Source: Siphonodentalium dalli
Taxonomy: Eukaryota; Mollusca; Scaphopoda; Gadilida; Siphonodentaliidae
NCBI GenBank assembly: GCA_032622095.1
Contig: CP136063.1
Coordinates: forward strand, 84,049,980-84,113,979
DNA length: 64,000 nt
Direction: 5' to 3'
Below the pieces are notes generated by a model, which saw only the letters and a list, made by a program, of their open reading frames with translations, did no database searches and had not been told where the DNA came from. Shown here piece after piece: positions 9,656 to 50,753 of the stretch. The translations under genes and the position numbers were made by a program. Position 1 is the first letter of the stretch, and every line of letters starts with the position of its first letter.

Positions 9656-9661
9656 CCCATA

Positions 9662-11685
9662 ATTATACTTCCATATTTTAATATGGAAGTATATTGTTAT
9701 TCAATTTATTATTTTTTTCCAATATTATTTATTATACTAAGCAATTTTATAACCCTTATATCTCAGGAAGTATGAGAGATAGAGCGCTGGATTTTGGTAT
9801 GTTTATAGCCCTATGATAGTTGTAGTGCATCGGGCTATATAGGATTTTGTCCTAACTTGATTTGCAGAGTTATCTCCCTTTATGTGTAAAACTGGGGGTT
9901 GCAGTATCTCGAAAAGTATGAACAGCAGCAACTTGAAATTTGGACCGTATGTACAACTCAGTAGGCCCTATTGTGTCCATGTTTTACAATTTATGTCCGA
10001 GCTTTCCCTACAGAGTTGTCGCCCATGATTCGCAAAATTCGATTTATTTCATATCCTGTGTCCGCCTATAACATTCAAGGTAGCCAGATAAGAGGGCTTC
10101 TATGCAGTTACTTATTAGCAACTTGCTATGAAAATAAGTTTTGAACAGGAACGGACTTATATTTTTGGGGTTTGGGTGGGGGCAAAATTTTCGAAATATT
10201 TTTTTTCGATGATTTCAACTACTTTTACTGTCGTGTATCTATAGGACGTACTAATGATCCTCATGAAAGAATTTTGGAAATCGGTTCAGAATTGACCAAG
10301 TTATAACCAATCGAAAATTGTATTCATACATCAATTGAGGAGAAAGTGCTTGTCACTCTATCTCCTCCTAGACGACGCACATAAACTGGATTTGGTTTAT
10401 GTGAGCGTGTTATACATAGAGAGAACACGAGTTGGTAAAATTTTGACCAAGATCGAGTGAAATTTGTCCGCACTAGGGATGGGGTCAAAATTGATAATTT
10501 TTTTGTTGTCTCCGATTTGAACCAAAATTGTTGTGAAGTATCTATAATGTGTATTGAGGGCCATTATGAGTGAATTTTGTGAATCGGTTGCCAAATGTAG
10601 AAATTGTGGCCCCTTCCTTTTTTTCAAGTTTACAGAAAATGCACTATGAATTTAAATTTCTTCAACCGATCGTCACGTGTTTAGTGTCATTCGATGGGGA
10701 ATTTCCAGTACTTCAAAACGATTACCTACTTGTGGTATTACGACGATGGAGGCCAGAGATATTCGAAAAGTATGTACTGAACAACATACATATTGGCCTA
10801 CATAGTAGAATATCACCACAGTACCTTACCAGAACCCTACTAAATATTAAAGGGACATCAAATACGAACACAATGACGCAAAAATTAGCTCGATATCGCG
10901 AAAATTGGCCGAGATATGGCGAATTTTCTATCCGCGTCACCAAATTTCGAGGCATGGGTGGGGGTCACACCAGAACGCTCCAACTGAACACAGAAATGTC
11001 AATAAACCATACTATCAACATTCCAATCAATTTTGTGCGATTCCCTTATTATACTTCCATATTTTAATATGGAAGTATATTGTTATTCAATTTATTATTT
11101 TTTTCCAATATTATTTATTATACTAAGCAATTTTATAACCCTTATATCTCAGGAAGTATGAGAGATAGAGCGCTGGATTTTGGTATGTTTATAGCCCTAT
11201 GATAGTTGTAGTGCATCGGGCTATATAGGATTTTGTCCTAACTTGATTTGCAGAGTTATCTCCCTTTATGTGTAAAACTGGGGGTTGCAGTATCTCGAAA
11301 AGTATGAACAGCAGCAACTTGAAATTTGGACCGTATGTACAACTCAGTAGGCCCTATTGTGTCCATGTTTTACAATTTATGTCCGAGCTTTCCCTACAGA
11401 GTTGTCGCCCATGATTCGCAAAATTCGATTTATTTCATATCCTGTGTCCGCCTATAACATTCAAGGTAGCCAGATAAGAGGGCTTCTATGCAGTTACTTA
11501 TTAGCAACTTGCTATGAAAATAAGTTTTGAACAGGAACGGACTTATATTTTTGGGGTTTGGGTGGGGGCAAAATTTTCGAAATATTTTTTTTCGATGATT
11601 TCAACTACTTTTACTGTCGTGTATCTATAGGACGTACTAATGATCCTCATGAAAGAATTTTGGAAATCGGTTCAGAATTGACCAA
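9662..11685 (+). mobile_element. A-B-A direct-repeat element, copy 1
   Basis: Two 638-bp direct repeats (9662-10299 and 11048-11685), apparently identical with no indels, enclose a 748-bp spacer. Each A repeat opens with a hairpin TATACTTCCAT...ATGGAAGTATA and contains GTTATCTCCCTTTAT and 'GACCGTATGTACA'. The spacer ends with 'CACCAAATTTCGAGGCATGG'. The same landmarks in the same order, but diverged in sequence, make up 46637-50167. No convincing ORF is present; the 165-codon frame at 10570-11067 has no coding character. Confidence 0.75.
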
Positions 11686-11689
11686 TGTT

Positions 11690-13020
11690 ATGTTAGGCGG
11701 ACAACAAATCGAATATTAAATAATTTGGCTAATGAAGGAGCATGGGAGAGGATGAAGCATAACCGGGGCGGCGACGAAACCATGCTGGGTAATACCAGGT
11801 CGGGGAGGTGAGACCAGGCCGAGGGTGGTGAGACCAGGCTGATCGGTGGCGGATGTAAACGGCAGATTTAGCACACAAAAAACAAAAAACAAAAAAAAAA
11901 CAAGTCCAGCGGTATAATATTTTTGTTGCATATTCCGAATGGGGAGAGTGGTGCGGACCGAATTTTACCACTGGCAAGTTTTTTGTCCCAATCGTTACCG
12001 GTCTACGGCATGTACAAGAAAATTACCTATTTTTGGCGCCAAATCCAAACGGGCTAATTGGTGAGCAAGGTTAATGCAGGAGCAGGTACTGCGGTATCGC
12101 GTAGGTAGGCCCCCAAAGTGTGATAGCTCTGCTATAATAGCAAACTGTCAAACAGCGAGTGACCTTCCGGTCGGTTCAGACTTTTTGTAAATTCCAACGA
12201 AAATCAAAGGGGGAAAAATTGTCTAAAAATCAAACATCGAGACAAAAAAATTTTGAATAGTGGATATGATAGATAGTACCCAAACGCAACTTATCGATGT
12301 CTGCTTAATTTGCGCTAAGGTACCAGGTTTACTAGTGGCGAGGCTTTATAATGTTAACAAGTATATTTAAGTGCTGTATCACTAAGCTATTTTTCTCGCC
12401 AAATCCGACCGGGTTAATGACGGAGCAATGTAATGCAGGAGCCGGTTCGTTGATATATTGTTGGTAACATCCTAAAGTTTGACCGCTCTACTTACAAAGC
12501 AAACCGACCAACGGAAAGCTCGTGTTCAGGTGGGTGCATATTGGCAATTTCCAACAAAAATCAAAAGTTAAAAAATTCTTGAAAAAAATAAAATATGGAG
12601 ATAAAATTTTGCTGACGAGTGGATGTGATAGGGGATATCAACGCCCAAAACTGGTGCGATTGCTTAAGTTTCAGAACAAAGGATCCACTCGTGGCGACGA
12701 TATATAGCGTAATGCGTAGTACATGCATAGGAACACAGCCTACATCGATATATGGCAAAAGTCGAAATTCAAGCAGGCTAATGAAGGAGTGAGTCAAATG
12801 CGTGAGCATGTGCCTCAGTTTACCATATATACATCCTGGAAGTTTGACTGTTGTGTAAAAGCAATCCGTCTAACGGAGAACGTGCATCGGTTGGTCGAGG
12901 CTTTTGGCAACTTCAAGTAAATCTTGCAAAGAAATACATGAAGAAATCGAGATAAAGCAAATTGGATGTGGTCGGTACTATCCACGTGCAAATTCGATGA
13001 TTTTTTGTTACTTTTCAAAT
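11690..13020. repeat. Degenerate ~360-bp tandem array
   Basis: Units share 'CGCCAAATCC..ACGGGCTAAT..G.GAGCAA.G.TAATGCAGGAGC', an interrupted motif, and 'TTTGACCGCTCTACT'-type segments. Landmarks are at about 12036, 12396 and 12761, with a partial unit near 11720. A diverged inverted piece of the same repeat occurs at 43900-44170. It is non-coding. Confidence 0.6.
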
Positions 13021-13099
13021 GAATGCGCAATGAGTTAATCAGGATTAAGTGACCGATAGATATTACATGTATTCACTTATCATGTAGAAAAATACTCCC

Positions 13100-13490
13100 G
13101 ATGACTGTATACACATAGGAAAATTAATGTGAAGGGTTAACAATATGATTATCTCTTTAAATAACAAGTTTTGAAATAGTTTTGTGGGTACAAAATAATA
13201 AATATGAATTGAAGACCCATGTCCAGTAAGACTTCTATCAGCTAATGTTGAATTTTTTCGAATATTTTATTATGAGATGTTAATTGGGACAAGTTCTTGA
13301 TTTATTTTTAGAACAGCCCTGGTCACTGGTAACAGTAACCACTATTGTTCGTTAGCTAAACAACCACACATTATTAGACCAGAAGATATTCGAAATGAAA
13401 TCAATAATAACAATAGAATCATTTCCGGACAGAATTCTTGACTCATATTTAATATTTTATGCCCTGATAACTATATAACACATTAAGAAT
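13100..13490. repeat. Dispersed repeat (copy at 28160-28670)
   Basis: Shared landmarks in order are 'AATAAATATGAATTGAAGAC', 'TTCGAATATTTTATTATGA', 'AACAGTAACCACTATTGTTC' and 'GAATCATTTCCGGACA'. The second copy carries an extra ~160 bp in its middle. No ORF is visible. The family is not recognised. Confidence 0.75.
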
Positions 13491-13504
13491 AGGGCTATAG
13501 ATAT

Positions 13505-13890
13505 GTGTAGATCAGGGTTAGGCTTAATGTTAACGTTATGGTCAGGATATGGTTTATAAATTGGGTTAGAATTGTGGATATTGTTAATGATAAAATTGTG
13601 ACGGTGTCAGTTATGCAAAGGATTTGGTTGTGGTTACGCTTGTATGTATGACTAAACTCATTGAAAGAGTTATGGTAATGGTCCAAGGTACGGCTATGGA
13701 TATGGTTTGCATGAGGGCAATGTATTTGGTAAGGGTATTTTATTGGGTTAGAGTTAAGTGCTGTGGATAGGGCTGTGGAAATGGTTATGATTATGGATTG
13801 GCTACCAATATTAGGGTTATGGAGTGGTTTATGTGTAAGGATTGGATAGGGTTGGGTAGATGATTAAATTATGGATGGTGATCGGGGATG
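13505..13890 (+). repeat. Degenerate G/T-rich GGTTA-type repeat
   Basis: The plus strand is strongly G/T-biased, with many variants of GGTTAGGG and GGTTATGG but no regular period. It looks like an old, mutated telomere-like or simple repeat. The opposite-strand ORF here is an artefact of the composition. Confidence 0.55.
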
Positions 13891-14572
13891 GGGAATTTAT
13901 ATGGAAGTATCAAAATTCTGCAGGCCAGAATTTTAACCCTCTAGTTTGTACTTGATATCATGTGTTTGAGTACAAATGTTTTAAATGAGCTTTATTCAGA
14001 AAGACGATTTTTGTCAGACCTAGCTAACTATAAGGTAACACGTTGAAAGATCTAATTCAACCACTTGAATCGTACACTTTTGATAATCTTGAGTGATAAT
14101 AACAAATATATACATAAAACTCCTGTAATCTGGGTTGTGATCGTACTATATAGTGTTATATACGTTTCAAGTTGGAATAAAATATGCATATTTATGCCCA
14201 ACTACATGGAATTGAACCCTCTATTTCTAATTATAATTAACTAGATATAATTGTGTCCTCAAAACTTATGTCATGTTGATGGCATGGCTCGTTATACTCA
14301 ACTTATACCTGAGTAAATCTAACTGAGGAAAATTTAAGTTAATGTGTCAGCATATATAGGCCTGTATGTGGTCACCCCCAACCGAAAGTACTTTATCATC
14401 CTCCAACCTACTCTAGACCTGTGTATGAATGTGTTCGTCAGATCCCCACCCCTATTGGGGGAACTCTTAGCAGTGGGAGGAAGGAATGCCATCGAACACA
14501 CATATAGAGCCGCTCGACCTTAAAAAACGCTGCGATTAATCGCACGCGCGTGTGCAATGAGAATAGACCCTA

Positions 14573-43381: not shown

Positions 43382-43870
43382 CTAGAGGTCAGATTCCATG
43401 GAATCAGATATACTTCCATGGTATTCCATCCCATCCCATCCCGACCTGACCTTGGTCTTCAAAATGGTCAATCGAAGGTCAAATCGGGTAAAACAGACGG
43501 ATTTCCACGAAATTTGATACCTAGGGCTACTTTTGTCCGGGGAGTCTTTTGGGCGGATCAAGTCGTGACCCCGACCTGACATTGACCTTCGAAATGGTCA
43601 GTTCAAGGTCAAATCGGGTAAAACGAACGGATTTCGACGAAATTTGATACCAAGGAAAACTTTTGTCCGGGGAGTGTTTTGGACAGGTAAAATCGTGACA
43701 ATAGGTTACTTTTATAGTAAAGCGGACATATAGTATATCGGTGAGCATATTCATGCATTTGCCTTGCTTCTTGATAAGTCCGTTTGAATTTGCGTCTTGA
43801 AGAGAGGGTTTGAATTTGAGTAATATATATCACCCGTTACAACGTTATACTCTACCAGGGTTAAACCGTC
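43382..43870 (-). mobile_element. Helitron-like element with a different 3' hairpin
   Basis: On the minus strand, GATTCCATGGAATC (a perfect hairpin) is followed by TGACCT, CTAG (43382-43385) and T. The body holds AAGGTCA-containing units related to 700-850 and 1380-1440 ('AAGGTCAAATCGGGTAAAAC' here, inverted there). The 5' limit is not defined. Confidence 0.45.
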
Positions 43871-43899
43871 CAATCTAAATCATTAAAAAGTGTACTAAT

Positions 43900-44170
43900 C
43901 TTGCGTTTAGATACTACTTATCACATCAAGTCGTCGAAAAGTTTTTATCTCAATATCAGATTTTCGGAGTAATTTTCCCCATGTGATCTTCGGTGGAATT
44001 TGCCAAATCTGAACCCACCCGACACAAACACTCCCTTGAGCAGGTTGCGTTTATAGTAGAGCGGTCAAATTTTGAAGGCATACCGACAGTATACCGACTT
44101 ACATGCTCCTACATTAGCCCGTTTGGATTTGGGGCTAAAAACTCGGCTAGTGAGTAAACCGTTCCATCTG
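43900..44170 (-). repeat. Diverged inverted copy of the 11690-13020 repeat
   Basis: 'TTTATAGTAGAGCGGTCAAA' and 'TAGCCCGTTTGGATTTGG' are the reverse complement of 'TTTGACCGCTCTACT' and 'CCAAATCCAAACGGGCTA' in that array. Confidence 0.6.
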
Positions 44171-44174
44171 AAAA

Positions 44175-45380
44175 TTAGAAAAACGCCCTCTGGATGCGTA
44201 CCGTACTACATGTATGTGGATATACGATAAAACCTTTATCACAGTTACTGCCATAAATTAAAGTACCAAATAGAAGGTTTTAATTTATAAACCTGTATAC
44301 TAATATAAAGACTCGAGTTATAAAATAATTACCAAATGGCCGACAAACATATCTCAAATAAAAGCACTAAACACAAATACATAGTCATATATACACGTAT
44401 TTAGACGGATAATGCTATTGAAAAGTGTCACAAATTTACCGAAATTACATATATCGGGATGGATGAACCTGACTTATTCGAATGTAGTTTAGGTAGAGTT
44501 ACACGTTATAATTATGTTCTCCTTGTGGTATGCATATACGACAGTCCATTTCTGAGCCTGAAGCTGAATAAAGTTTTTACACTTGAGGTAGTCTGTCCAT
44601 GGTGACTGGTGAGCAACGGCTCTACAATCTAAATTTATATTTTTACGAATATTTTGATCACCAAAATGGGACATAGGCGAATGTATTTTATTTGAAGTTC
44701 TATCATGCTCGCGAACGTTCTAGAAAGATCACAAAAACGTCGCTATACATGTGTATCAGGCGTCAAGAATTAAATATAATTCAGAAACATATTCATTGAG
44801 GATAAACAATTAATGCTGTGAATGCACGATATGTCGATACAAACGTTTATACCAATTGTACGGATTATCTATTATCGCGAACCTTTTCACTGCTCGTATG
44901 AGTTTGTATAAATTTTGGGTTCAAAGTGACTTAGTCGGACAGGTGCGTAACACCCTGTACCATCAGAAGTAGGCCAGCCATGACGAAGGCAATTCTATTT
45001 TAAAGAGCGCGGATTTGGGATAACTGCATTGTGTGAGAACGTAATTGATTCGCGTACATCTATATGCATTTTAGTATGTTGCTTTCCCGAGTAATGGTGC
45101 CTTTTCTGTGCACATATATAGCACCAAAGTGAACATACGCCTTCTCACCAGCAAAATGATAAATAGCCGATGTGTTGAAATGGTAGTATACCATAAACAT
45201 ATATAGCATGTCGAGCTTGTAAACTAGACGGATATTCTTGTGAATATTCGGGTATGAATGCGCGTATTTTACCATTTAATATGTTATTGCAAGTCTTCGC
45301 AGTCATGCATAAGTTCATAATACCAAGTTAACAATCATTATTCACACACAAACATATATATGTCGTATGTCGTTCAACGT
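44175..45380. other. Stretch without a supported gene
   Basis: Two minus-strand frames (44489-44674 and 45060-45275) share a faint N-I-x-K-N-I pattern and similar ends, but both are near chance length. No repeat was recognised. Confidence 0.35.
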
Positions 45381-45382
45381 AA

Positions 45383-45652
45383 TTTTTTTTTTTTTTTTTT
45401 TTTTTTTTAACCCGGGGCTATTGCGGACCACTCATATCGGCTGGAGCACCCCGAAAGAGGTGACCCACCCTTACGAGATGGTCAAATTGCCTTTCGGGGT
45501 CAGTCCCCGCTAAAGCGGAAGTCCGTCAGTCAGTCACGACCACTTGTCCTCCTCAGGCTGCGAACCCACACCGTGGAAGTCCCGTCCGATGGCCAGCCAT
45601 CGTCGGGGACGTATCTCACAGCACGGGCTCGAGCCAAAGGCCGAGAAGCGAT
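45383..45652 (-). mobile_element. SINE-like retroposon with a U2 snRNA-like head and poly(A) tail
   Basis: On the minus strand the element starts ATCGCTTCTCGGCCTTTGGC, which equals the 5' end of U2 snRNA except for one missing T. It continues with ~220 bp of GC-rich, non-U2 sequence and ends in a 26-base poly(A) (plus-strand T run 45383-45408). GC content contrasts sharply with its surroundings. No clear target-site duplication was seen, so the 5' limit could lie further out and the U2 match could be internal. Confidence 0.5.
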
Positions 45653-45654
45653 CG

Positions 45655-46636
45655 AATGATCACCCATTTCGCAACAGCGAAATAGCGTATGATGACATTA
45701 AACTCTCTTTGCTCGCGGCCTATATCGCGATTTCCCCAACAGTTTAAGGTGTTTTATTTCACTAATAGATATGGTAGCATTCTGGGAATGATATATACAT
45801 GGCAGCTTATACCTACACATTCCATATACAATTCGCTTAATTTTGGTGTGATTCATATTCTTGAATACACGCAGGTGGTGAATTAGTCGGCGCTTTAAGA
45901 CATGTTTGTGTATATTTTCCGATTAGCGGACGTACGTACGACGTCGTTGTCGGACTCTTCCTAAGTTATAACACTTTGCATTACGTCTCGTCCAATTAAT
46001 GCGAAATATGCAATCAACGATCTTAACAAACCGGCAATAAAGTCATACATTTTCACTCGTGCCATATACAGATGATAAAGAGACAGTTTTTAATTGGTCA
46101 GATCTAAATTCAACAAACGTATGCTATATACCAGATGGGAATTTAATACCAAACCTTAGATAGTTACGTTCGGAAATTATGATACCAAAATTAGCGACTT
46201 AGGGGCGGCAAGGTTGGGGTGTCGGACGGGACACGCTGACTCCCATTCAGTTAATTTGAATATATCTTATATTAAAATGGTTTACGGTCGCGTGAACGGA
46301 TAGAAAATAGTTTCAATTCAATTGAGAACTGCAAGCGAAAGTCCGCGCATCAGACGGATTGTGCTTTCTGAAAACGTGGTCCATGCGGAGAAGTGTTATA
46401 ACATTATACGACGGACACCACAGTTATGTTAATTCTAAAACTAATGAATTTAGAGCGTTTTTTGGACTCAAAATATGTCAATTTTAAGCCGCATCGTGAT
46501 AAAACTGCAGAATTACGGCCGATTGACAAGACAGACAGCCGACATTGTTTTGAGTGATTACCCATTAGCCAATATAACAATTAACGCAGTGTGCCGAACA
46601 GGAATGGCTGTTGAATATATCATCAGTGGTCATTGG
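45655..46636. other. Intergenic stretch, nothing recognised
   Basis: Unique AT-rich sequence. A short frame at 46475-46735 runs into the A repeat and is not supported. Confidence 0.35.
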
Positions 46637-49600
46637 TGTAAAAATATATGTCCAACCCTGTCAAATTTTCTTCCTTGGACTAAGCTGACAACGGTCAATA
46701 CGACTACAAAAACCAAATGCAGTTATCTGGAATAATACAGGAGGACAACAGAGTACAATAAAATAGAGGTTTGCCAACTATGGGCGGTAACTCTTCAGGG
46801 AAAGCGCGGACACAAGTTTTTATGCCCGTGGGCAGTAGTGCATATCGAGATGTGCATACGGTCTAATTTTCGATGCTCTGCTTCTTATAATTTCCGAGAT
46901 AATAAAGTGACATTTTTTCAAATAAAGGGAGATAACTCCTCGGTGAAAGCGCGGACAAAATCGTTATGGGCCATATGGTTAGAACTCATGTACCCCAACC
47001 TACTTACCAAGTTTTGGTGTCCTACTTCTTGTACTATTCGAGTAATAGTGATTACAAAAGTGTCAAGTATAATAATAATAACAATGAAAAATAATCGCAA
47101 AAGGGCCATAACTCCGCCAAGAAACATTGGGCGGAAATCCTGATACCATTATATTTAGTAAACCTTCGATGCCTACTTTCGCTAGAGATTTCGCGTTCCT
47201 ACTGCAATCAGTTTCTGAGTATTTCGAAATAAACGGAAAACGACCTCAGTAGAAAAACAATATACTTCCTTGGTTACACCATGGAAGTATAATAATAGGG
47301 CGAATCTTGAGCTGAAAACATCGTAGTTTAGGGACGGAAAATAGGAAGTAGGATGATTATATCACGTCCTTACCATGTTTATGTTGATCTCAAGTGATTG
47401 CAAGTGACCCCACCCCTGCCTCGAAATTGGGTGACGGGATTGGGAAATTGTCAACCCAGGCTCAAAATGCGAATTTTGAAGACCCGTAACTCCGTTATTT
47501 TCCAATGGATTTAAAAATTGTTTTCAGTTTTGTGATCTGCTGCTCACATATATTGTATGGAATGCATTTCATCTGAATCGGAGACGAAAAACATTTCGGT
47601 TATTGGAAAGCATATGGGCCCAAGTTCAAACTTTGAGGGTCCAAATCTCCGCCATTTTCCAACGGATCTGAGATCTGTTTTCAGCGTCGTGATAAGTTTG
47701 TAGGGTAGATGTTATATTCCAAGTTTCATCTGATTCGGAGACTAAATAAAATATTGAACCATAAACCACCCCTCCCCAGAACCACAATACTGAACCGAGA
47801 CTGGCAAAATTTGGCTCACACCGAGCACTAGATAGTCTGGATACTTAGAAGTGTGTCACTATTTGCAATGATTGTCCGTTTTAAAGGAGATAGGGCGACA
47901 ACCCGATTGTCCCCCCCCCCAAAAAAATTTGAGGGCCCACAACTCTGGTATTTCTACTCAGATTTCAATTTTTTTTTCGCGGTATTTGATCAGCTTTACA
48001 CAGTGAAGCCATACACAGAAATAGACGAGATTCGTAACGAATTTTTTTTTTTAATTTGGCACCCCCATCCTATTGTAAAAATATATGTCCAACCCTGTCA
48101 AATTTTCTTCCTTGGACTAAGCTGACAACGGTCAATACGACTACAAAAACCAAATGCAGTTATCTGGAATAATACAGGAGGACAACAGAGTACAATAAAA
48201 TAGAGGTTTGCCAACTATGGGCGGTAACTCTTCAGGGAAAGCGCGGACACAAGTTTTTATGCCCGTGGGCAGTAGTGCATATCGAGATGTGCATAAGGTC
48301 TAATTTTCGATGCTCTGCTTCTTATAATTTCCCAGATAATAAAGTGACATTTTTTCAAATAAAGGGAGATAACTCCTCGGTGAAAGCGCGGACAAAATCG
48401 TTATGGGCCATATGGTTAGAACTCATGTACCCCAACCTACTTACCAAGTTTTGGTGTCCTACTTCTTGTACTATTCGAGTAATAGTGATTACAAAAGTGT
48501 CAAGTATAATAATAATAACAATGAAAAATAATCGCAAAAGGGCCATAACTCCGCCAAGAAACATTGGGCGGAAATCCTGATACCATTATATTTAGTAAAC
48601 CTTCGATGCCTACATTCGCTAGAGATTTCGCGTTCCTACTGCAATCAGTTTCTGAGTATTTCGAAATAAACGGAAAACGACCTCAGTAGAAAAACAATAT
48701 ACTTCCTTGGTTACACCATGGAAGTATAATAATAGGGCGAATCTTGAGCTGAAAACATCGTAGTTTAGGGACGGAAAATAGGAAGTAGGATGATTATATC
48801 ACGTCCTTACCATGTTTATGTTGATCTCAAGTGATTGCAAGTGACCCCACCCCTGCCTCGAAATTGGGTGACGGGATTGGGAAATTGTCAACCCAGGCTC
48901 AAAATGCGAATTTTGAAGACCCGTAACTCCGTTATTTTCCAATGGATTTAAAAATTGTTTTCAGTTTTGTGATCTGCTGCTCACATATATTGTATGGAAT
49001 GCATTTCATCTGAATCGGAGACGAAAAACATTTCGGTTATTGGAAAGCATATGGGCCCAAGTTCAAACTTTGAGGGTCCAAATCTCCGCCATTTTCCAAC
49101 GGATCTGAGATCTGTTTTCAGCGTCGTGATAAGTTTGTAGGGTAGATGTTATATTCCAAGTTTCATCTGATTCGGAGACTAAATAAAATATTGAACCATA
49201 AACCACCCCTCCCCAGAACCACAATACTGAACCGAGACTGGCAAAATTTGGCTCACACCGAGCACTAGATAGTCTGGATACTTAGAAGTGTGTCACTATT
49301 TGCAATGATTGTCCGTTTTAAAGGAGATAGGGCGACAACCCGATTGTCCCCCCCAAAAAAAATTTGAGGGCCCACAACTCTGGTATTTCTACTCAGATTT
49401 CAATTTTTTTTCGCGGTATTTGATCAGCTTTACACAGTGAAGCCATACACAGAAATAGACGAGATTCGTAACGAATTTTTTTTTTTTAATTTGGCACCCC
49501 CATCCTATTGTAAAAATATATGTCCAACCCTGTCAAATTTTCTTCCTTGGACTAAGCTGACAACGGTCAATACGACTACAAAAACCAAATGCAGTTATCT

Positions 49601-50167
49601 GGAATAATACAGGAGGACAACAGAGTACAATAAAATAGAGGTTTGCCAACTATGGGCGGTAACTCTTCAGGGAAAGCGCGGACACAAGTTTTTATGCCCG
49701 TGGGCAGTAGTGCATATCGAGATGTGCATACGGTCTAATTTTCGATGCTCTGCTTCTTATAATTTCCGAGATAATAAAGTGACATTTTTTCAAATAAAGG
49801 GAGATAACTCCTCGGTGAAAGCGCGGACAAAATCGTTATGGGCCATATGGTTAGAACTCATGTACCCCAACCTACTTACCAAGTTTTGGTGTCCTACTTC
49901 TTGTACTATTCGAGTAATAGTGATTACAAAAGTGTCAAGTATAATAATAATAACAATGAAAAATAATCGCAAAAGGGCCATAACTCCGCCAAGAAACATT
50001 GGGCGGAAATCCTGATACCATTATATTTAGTAAACCTTCGATGCCTACATTCGCTAGAGATTTCGCGTTCCTACTGCAATCAGTTTCTGAGTATTTCGAA
50101 ATAAACGGAAAACGACCTCAGTAGAAAAACAATATACTTCCTTGGTTACACCATGGAAGTATAATAA
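46637..50167 (-). mobile_element. A-B-A-B-A direct-repeat element, copy 2
   Basis: Three 659-bp A repeats (46637-47295, 48074-48732, 49509-50167) alternate with two B segments (778 and 776 bp). They are nearly identical; differences are mainly in poly-C and poly-T lengths. Each A, read on the minus strand, opens with TTATTATACTTCCATGG hairpinning to CCAAGGAAGTATA. It contains GTTATCTCCCTTTAT, 'GACCGTATGCACA' and 'GTCCGCGCTTTCCCT'. B ends with 'CACCCAATTTCGAGGCAGGG'. These are the landmarks of 9662-11685 in the same order. No coding frame is convincing; the 101-codon frame present in every A reflects the repeat. Confidence 0.8.
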
Positions 50168-50204
50168 CACAAGGGGATAGGGGTAGATCGCCTTGGTGAC
50201 ATGT

Positions 50205-50325
50205 ACATTACAATTTCAGCCTGTCGTCATGACAGGCGCATTATAATTTCAGTCTGTAATTATGACAGGTGCATTATAATTTCAGCCTGTAATTATGACA
50301 GGTGCATTATAATTTCAGCCTGTCG
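50205..50325. repeat. 33-bp tandem repeat, ~3.5 copies
   Basis: The unit contains CATTATAATTTCAGCCTGT and a small palindrome CCTGTAATTATGACAGG. The multiple-of-three period creates an 11-residue repeating frame with no known meaning. Confidence 0.9.
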
Positions 50326-50398: not shown

Positions 50399-50753
50399 TT
50401 AAGGTGGTACTGTACACTAAATCCGGCCATTTATGGAACCATCTCATTTTATACTCAAGATAATATATGCAACAAATGAATGAATTTGAGACATAGATAA
50501 TGCAAAAATAGACTCAAGGGTCTATGAATGATGCAAACAACATGGTAATTATAATAAAAATGAATTTATGGCTGGAGTAATAAATTCATTTTTGTTATAA
50601 TTACCATGTTGTTTGTATCGTTCATACGGTAAGTGAGTGTATTTTGCACTCATCCATGGCTCAAATTTATTCATTTGTTGCATATATTCTGTTGAGTATA
50701 AAATGAGATGGTCCCAAAAATGGCCAGATTTAGAATACAGGACCCCTTTAAAA
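50399..50753. mobile_element. Foldback MITE, copy 1
   Basis: Inverted arms of about 170 bp: 'CTAAATCCGGCCATTTATGG', 'AACCATCTCATTTTATACTC', 'CAACATGGTAATTATAA' and complements, meeting at 'TGGCTGGAGTAATAAATTCA'. Another copy is at 51386-51645. Confidence 0.85.

Follow-up and report, generated by a model that had tools for sequence, protein, structure and literature searches.

The 64,000-nt window analysed here (Siphonodentalium dalli, GenBank assembly GCA_032622095.1, contig CP136063.1, positions 84,049,980 to 84,113,979 of the forward strand; 38% G+C) carries two repeat loci, locus 1 at 46637-50167 and locus 2 at 9662-11685, which very probably both belong to non-autonomous Helentrons (HINEs), rolling-circle transposons that here have a single 3' terminus and a 5' terminus present in repeated copies. 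The tail of the element occurs once and its front end from once to dozens of times, and in this way it makes satellite-like DNA from its own start signal. We assign both loci to the Helentron/HINE type because their termini match the described HINE structure of subterminal inverted repeats (subTIRs), a complement at the 5' subTIR and a 3' palindrome (PMC4067079, PMC7492417); here and below, comparisons with published systems refer to those parts of the cited papers that were available. A preliminary description of the window, made from the sequence alone, could not place the repeats in a known class and read them in the opposite polarity to the true one. The palindrome and the CTAG end lie at the other end of the element, which also rules out a Helitron in the orientation first given.

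Boundaries and termini of the two elements

The preliminary description divided each locus into a repeat, A, and a spacer, B, and the lengths and periods that it gave were confirmed. Locus 1 reads A-B-A-B-A, with an A of 659 bp, periods of 1437 and 1435 bp and A copies that are 99-100% identical; locus 2 reads A-B-A with a period of 1386 bp, and its copies at 9657-10304 and 11043-11691 are 99.5% identical. The two loci do represent diverged families in opposite orientation, with a 64% match over 489 columns (E 5e-40). The view that this is a mobile, multimerising element, with no visible coding sequence and outside the long terminal repeat (LTR) class, also holds. The further proposal that the element is bounded by A as a terminal direct repeat had to be given up, as the first A runs on into 3.3 kb of element-specific sequence.

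A genome search with A listed 41 matches, the best 40 of 2,348 candidates scored, and ten stretches were taken from these. The flank of the innermost A could be read at nine independent loci, the window included; L010 and L012, which represent the opposite ends of the L011 and L013 arrays, were not counted again. In blastn comparisons of the left flanks, sequence common to the loci continues beyond the innermost A in 9/9, and the element therefore does not end at 46637, as first thought, and has the form P-A-(B-A)n. Here P is a single-copy 3' part that had been overlooked (43382..46636, minus strand, in locus 1). Seven of the nine loci, again counting the window, share the same P over up to 3.4 kb (L011 was compared over 1.9 kb); the other two (L013 and L014) carry a different P, with 88-90% similarity over ~960 bp of its far part and another sequence near A. 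The junction between array and P falls at unit position 779 in the seven loci and at 921 in the two, and the ends of A are constant, at 659 bp, in seven loci. Because the position of this junction is fixed within a subfamily, we read the leading partial unit as a founder's mark. A and B are not modules: a tandem array with a fractional copy always reads A(BA)n, so that beginning and ending with A is automatic in any such array and needs no special cause. The informative feature of the arrays is the hairpin-side end, which is identical among the copies read.

The whole locus 1 element occupies 43382..50167 on the minus strand, with its 5' end, TTATTATACTTCC, at 50167 and its 3' CTAG end, followed by TT, at 43382; in the seven copies with the same P, shared sequence stops at both of these ends. 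The far end of P reads (A)ACTAGAGGTCAGATTCCATGGAATCAGATATACTTCCATGG in all copies, with one change in L017. On the opposite strand this is the 3' end, consisting in order of the subTIR CCATGGAAGTATA (43409..43421, minus strand; the inverted match of the 5' subTIR), the palindrome GATTCCATGGAATC (43392..43405, minus strand), 10 nt, CTAG and TT, such that the subTIR lies 27 nt and the palindrome 10 nt from the CTAG end. The hairpin end is the 5' end, where a 13-bp subTIR, TATACTTCCATGG, and its complement (the TATACTTCC hairpin) lie 3-4 nt from the terminus. Copies of this hairpin, all on the minus strand, are found at 50133..50163 (outermost), 48698..48728 (second) and 47261..47291 (innermost); they stand at the heads of the first full unit (A+B, 1435 bp; 48733..50167), the second full unit (A+B, 1437 bp; 47296..48732) and the innermost partial unit (A, 659 bp; 46637..47295), which is joined to P. 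Inside each unit is a (TTA)4 tract (minus strand; 49942..49953, also 48507-48518 and 47070-47081), the insertion site in related arrays.

The second family is represented by the whole HINE of locus 2, at 9663..13944 on the plus strand, with its 5' hairpin at 9664 and its 3' CTAG end at 13944. The outer 5' subTIR and its complement form a hairpin at 9664..9693, and a second copy of this 5' terminus lies at 11050..11079. The 3' end reads, in order, ATATGGAAGTATC, a stem of 9, 10 nt, CTAG and TT; its subTIR (13899..13911) matches the 5' subTIR at 12/13 bases, and its hairpin (13912..13934) stops 10 nt before CTAG. All of these features are on the plus strand.

Each of these features agrees with what is described for Helentrons and HINEs. 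The subTIR pair is 13 bp long in locus 1 (TATACTTCCATGG / CCATGGAAGTATA) and matches at 12/13 in locus 2, compared with described lengths of ~11-15 bp and a 5' copy placed 2-4 nt from the end. The inverted complement at the 5' subTIR produces a hairpin at every unit start read; folded as single-stranded DNA, these hairpins have z-scores of -5.3 (locus 1) and -7.3 (locus 2), with 0/200 shuffles equally good. The 3' palindromes, GATTCCATGGAATC in locus 1 and AAAATTCTG/CAGAATTTT in locus 2, each lie 10 nt before CTAG, within the described distance of 8-35 nt from the end. Of the outermost 5' ends, 7/9 read TTATTATACTTCC. CTAG is followed by TT in 8/8 pieces read and in locus 2, and by the same dinucleotide at 1,116 of 1,129 exact 3' ends across the genome, where by our own estimate from the base composition of the window about one in ten would be expected. 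This is the TT insertion of Helentrons; PMC4067079 assigns such Ts to the element, so that TT may be terminus as much as target. No target duplication is common to the flanks inspected, and comparison of nested insertions with the empty unit reveals none outside (TTA)n, within which a short one is possible. Insertion is between Ts, with no visible target duplication outside this microsatellite.

Several further features lie in or next to the locus 1 element. About 266 bp of its P (45385-45653) are missing at that position from the other copies of this P that were compared; this insert consists of a T run followed by G+C-richer sequence and resembles a short interspersed nuclear element in appearance, and ARAGORN found no tRNA in it (~45.4-45.65 kb). 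Near the 3' end of P, at 43440-43699, are degenerate ~130 bp tandem repeats, adjoined in related copies by a GTCT-like microsatellite; oyster HINEs are described as having such a microsatellite close to the 5' end (PMC7492417). Tandem repeats of 33 bp (~3-4 copies; 50197-50323) directly adjoin the 5' end, and beyond them, at 50399-50751, is a fold-back with 118-nt arms (84%) around a nested 47-nt inverted repeat (94%), similar in form to a miniature inverted-repeat transposable element.

One 3' end and many 5' ends

Every unit read begins with a 5' terminus, and each element read has a single 3' terminus. The pieces that reach a 3' end contain exactly one in 8/8 cases, accompanied within that piece by 1 to 4 hairpins; this is the arrangement of multi-5'-end Helitron arrays, several 5' ends for one 3' end, with the arrays of contig C1 judged by their coordinates. 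Read directly, n in P-A-(B-A)n is 0 in L017, 1 in L009, L014, L015, L016 and L018, and 2 in the window. The checks proposed in the preliminary description turned up copies with n = 0, 1, 2, ~10 and ~40, with fixed ends.

Exact searches of the genome gave 10,157 hairpins (several loop types) and 1,129 3' ends (one variant), with 0 matches for the backward controls. Allowing up to 2 mismatches, there are 168 B-A junctions of the 1437 type and 22 P-A junctions of the window subtype, scattered over contigs C1-C8. Among the matches listed, 100 B-A junctions, all exact, fall into 16 clusters: six of 13, 10, 10, 9, 5 and 40, three pairs and seven single junctions; for the cluster at C6:213.84 Mb the size is a lower bound, as it may go on beyond the matches listed. 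All hairpins listed for C1:1-351 kb lie on a single strand, and the six exact 3' ends found there have the same orientation, each lying after hairpins.

A candidate autonomous Helentron and insertions into the (TTA)n site

Matches to the Helitron_like_N domain number at least 151 in this genome and were found in 0/14 control genomes. They form two groups, one of ~160-216 bits in frames near 1.6 thousand amino acids and one of ~90 bits in frames of 1.8-2.9 thousand amino acids, which suggests that canonical Helitrons and Helentrons occur side by side. An intact frame of the ~90-bit group at C1:214414089-214422248 contains OTU (E 5.5e-10), DUF6570, Helitron_like_N (E 1.7e-23) and PIF1 (E 4e-29) domains, and a second copy of this Helentron at C1:169.47 Mb, compared over 9.4 kb, shows 99% identity. 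Its 3' end, at C1:214432328, is of the same design as those of the HINEs, with ACATGGAAGTGT, an AATTGC/GCAATT hairpin, TTCTAG and TT, and a nested HINE at C1:42261 matches the Helentron 3' region at 78% over 1,284 columns. The 3' ends that lie 22-28 kb downstream of the Helentrons at C1:214.4 and C1:169.5 Mb were considered as shared by these Helentrons; for C1:214.4 Mb this was rejected, since that 3' end is part of the HINE around the insert, which itself ends at C1:214432328. Behind the Helentron frame, at L064:8459-9512, are ~174 bp tandem repeats, and the same region is present in the second copy.

The element with this intact frame is itself inserted in the TTA microsatellite of an array unit: the element at C1:214.40-214.43 Mb ends in TTCTAG and is followed by TTATTATTATTATTATACTGG, the remainder of the (TTA)n site. 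The same unit site forms the 3' flank of the HINE at L065. In the C1 pieces, six hairpins of other types lie 211-223 bp after a TTGG-type hairpin, each within the same (TTA)n of the unit, and an uninterrupted unit in the same array provides the empty site; two of the six (1859 and 24170) are possibly one insertion duplicated, their first units being identical. Four more hairpin pairs with this type of spacing occur at C1:332-345 kb, identified by coordinates only. The data thus show in part that the (TTA)n located ~210-225 bp inside some unit types is a target, and that the arrays in consequence collect nested Helentrons, one of them with an intact Rep-helicase frame.

Growth of the arrays and relation to known elements

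Units within an array are highly alike. On C1, 100% identity is found among seven units of 1746 bp and again among six of 1389 bp, and four 1242-bp units are 99.8-100% identical; these unit types differ from each other by ~10-43% where they can be aligned. For the 1437 type (19 units from 8 loci), substitutions amount to 0.26% within arrays (31 pairs, 3 arrays) versus 0.70% between loci (140 pairs), a contrast that 0/2000 label shuffles equalled, and the array at C4:40.55 Mb differs by 0.02% inside. The three A copies of locus 1 have three substitutions in common that are found in none of the other A copies compared, and in L018 one substitution is common to both A copies. In some arrays the periods are likewise exact and specific to the array, with 1435 bp occurring eight times, 1438 bp eight times in each of two arrays, and 1434 bp eight times.

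From these observations we propose that a Helentron-type Rep-helicase would nick at a 5' terminus, copy the strand to the 3' palindrome and insert the product at TT. If nicking could occur at any of several 5' termini, products with fewer units would result, and one long array could seed copies with n of 0, 1, 2 and so on. Less certainly, arrays may grow mainly by rolling-circle copying of a circle that has the 5' end and lacks the 3' terminator, after which unequal exchange would keep or alter the number of units. The same cause is proposed for plant Helitrons (PMC12628747, PMC6591975); the chance that bursts from such circles, as against unequal exchange, built the arrays may be about even or somewhat better. 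A more extended model, in which each transposition can produce a fresh run of 5' ends off a terminator-less circle, each able to launch copies, and the TTA site of some unit types draws further Helentrons, would make the arrays growth centres with their own landing places and, once an autonomous copy lands, their own enzyme; we regard this model as tentative and on balance doubtful.

The alternative with most in its favour, a serious if minority possibility, retains the HINE identity and attributes array growth solely to unequal crossing-over or replication slippage once the element has inserted, with no part for rolling-circle copying of terminator-less circles. Unequal exchange accounts for the homogeneity within arrays, as well as for the mixed periods and repeated shortened units at C4:140 Mb, and by our own reading the P-A and B-A junctions have only short shared matches, such as slippage or template switching leaves. 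The dispersed small copies with clean transposon ends and an n of 1 or 2 fit it less well, as n then varies among transposed copies. The identical 1,746-bp units and the exact, constant periods resemble single bursts, although recent exchange could do likewise.

Some points weigh against the favoured explanation. Two of the nine outermost 5' ends read AATTATACTTCC in place of TTATTATACTTCC, and in the DNA fold of lowest energy for the 3' end of locus 1 the palindrome is paired with the subTIR and not with itself. The ratio of hairpins to 3' ends in the genome is not the mean of n; the hairpin pattern fits several subfamilies and the 3' pattern one exact variant. In the Helentron frame, Exo_endo_phos scores 17.5 bits (E 0.0038) against a Pfam cut-off of 24.5, the 5' end of the Helentron itself was not reached within 14 kb upstream, and its partnership with the HINEs rests on the 3' end together with DNA similarity to the one nested HINE. 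The largest array read, at C4:140.65-140.71 Mb, differs by 0.50% inside versus 0.71% to other loci and contains shortened units. Finally, unequal exchange could also make and homogenise the arrays.

Because it is little more alike inside than outside and has shortened units, the C4:140 Mb array is older or mixed. At L010 and C4:140648443-140653973, the outer end of this 66-kb array, the units are shortened (periods of 1365 bp) and broken; at the inner end they are not.

An ordinary satellite or telomere-associated repeat, passively carried, would explain the long homogeneous arrays, one of which lies at the very start of contig C1, and is nonetheless very improbable: the arrays terminate in P and the 3' end of a transposon, and short copies at dispersed sites are numerous. 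Ordinary telomeres exist in this genome, one of 13 contig-end pieces read, the start of C3, having TTAGGG repeats; a role as telomere substitute at the C1 start was accordingly ruled out, the array there being an ordinary one that runs off the contig. The start of contig C2 (L050) has a short-period satellite (TAGTTAGTCTT...GTACGCGTAGTAT).

Still less probable is a terminal-direct-repeat element, whether LTR, terminal-repeat retrotransposon in miniature or other, with A as its repeats, as first described. The constant ends of A at 659 bp in seven loci and the existence of A-B-A copies and one single-A copy speak for it, but for the copies examined it is already refuted: the first A runs on into P in 9/9 loci, the boundary of A varies by subfamily (779 versus 921), and the ends are not TG..CA and consist of a 5' subTIR and a 3' palindrome with CTAG, where an LTR-type element would be bounded by TG..CA repeats and target duplications. 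A Penelope-like element or retrozyme, with tandem pseudo-LTR copies and a ribozyme spread by reverse transcription, deserves equally little credence: an incomplete unit ahead of complete ones, one end being fixed, does resemble 5'-truncated tandem retro-copies, but the first A runs into the shared P, both ends are fixed and HINE-like with none of the 5' variation expected of truncation, and an Rfam search of the window at the gathering score returned 0 matches, hammerheads included (the search did not extend to weaker matches).

For plant Helitrons, several 5' ends combined with a single 3' end have already been published, and the HINEs reported here are not a new class. Xiong, Dooner and Du are said to have ascribed plant Helitron arrays, in 2016, to bursts from circles that keep the 5' end and have no terminator, and Gaffney reportedly described the Pearl elements of bivalves in 2003. 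The available accounts of plant arrays share the combination of multiple 5' ends with a single 3' end, and the cause put forward for it, rolling-circle copying once the 3' terminator has been lost, but describe arrays that are mostly centromeric, partly decayed and truncated, whereas those described here are of Helentron type, with young dispersed copies and intact ends (PMC12628747, PMC6591975). The FoHeli elements of Fusarium, non-canonical Helitrons with duplicated 5' termini that have transposed with the duplication, repeat the first 31-85 nt only, in contrast to units of 1.2-1.75 kb repeated up to dozens of times (PMC5148889).

Among animals, the HINEs and Helentrons of mites, mosquitoes and Drosophila (DINE-1) are described with 12-15 bp subTIRs near both ends, TT insertion and no target duplication, and with an autonomous partner encoding a Rep-helicase-endonuclease and an OTU protease (PMC4067079). 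The S. dalli elements share their subTIRs, 5' complement or palindrome, 3' palindrome and TT insertion; the tandem repeats of those HINEs are central, between single-copy ends, whereas here the repeated unit begins with the 5' end (PMC4067079). Cg_HINE of the Pacific oyster is likewise a non-autonomous Helentron that spreads satellite-like arrays, with the same order of subTIR, complement, 3' subTIR and palindrome, but its monomers of 140-180 bp are central and mostly present in up to 5 copies, as against units of 1.2-1.75 kb that each carry a 5' terminus (PMC7492417). The bivalve Pearl elements are also Helentron-like with short tandem arrays, and their repeats of ~160 bp are central, where the repeat in S. 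dalli includes the 5' end (PMC7492417, PMC11136912). A literature search for this layout beyond plants and fungi found no animal description, with subscription journals mostly outside its coverage. Distinctive here are a Helentron with a repeated unit of 1.2-1.75 kb that includes the 5' end, the presence of young copies at dispersed sites, and insertions of the element into units of its own.

Concatemers are a predicted outcome when Helentrons transpose by a rolling circle, and unambiguous examples with intact ends are scarce in the literature searched. In S. dalli, one assembly holds copies with zero to ~40 extra 5' ends and one 3' end, near-identical units and an intact Helentron frame; because such copies coexist in one assembly, sequence data alone suffice to test when and in what order the arrays grew. 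These elements also provide a direct path by which a transposon terminus can become long-period satellite DNA.

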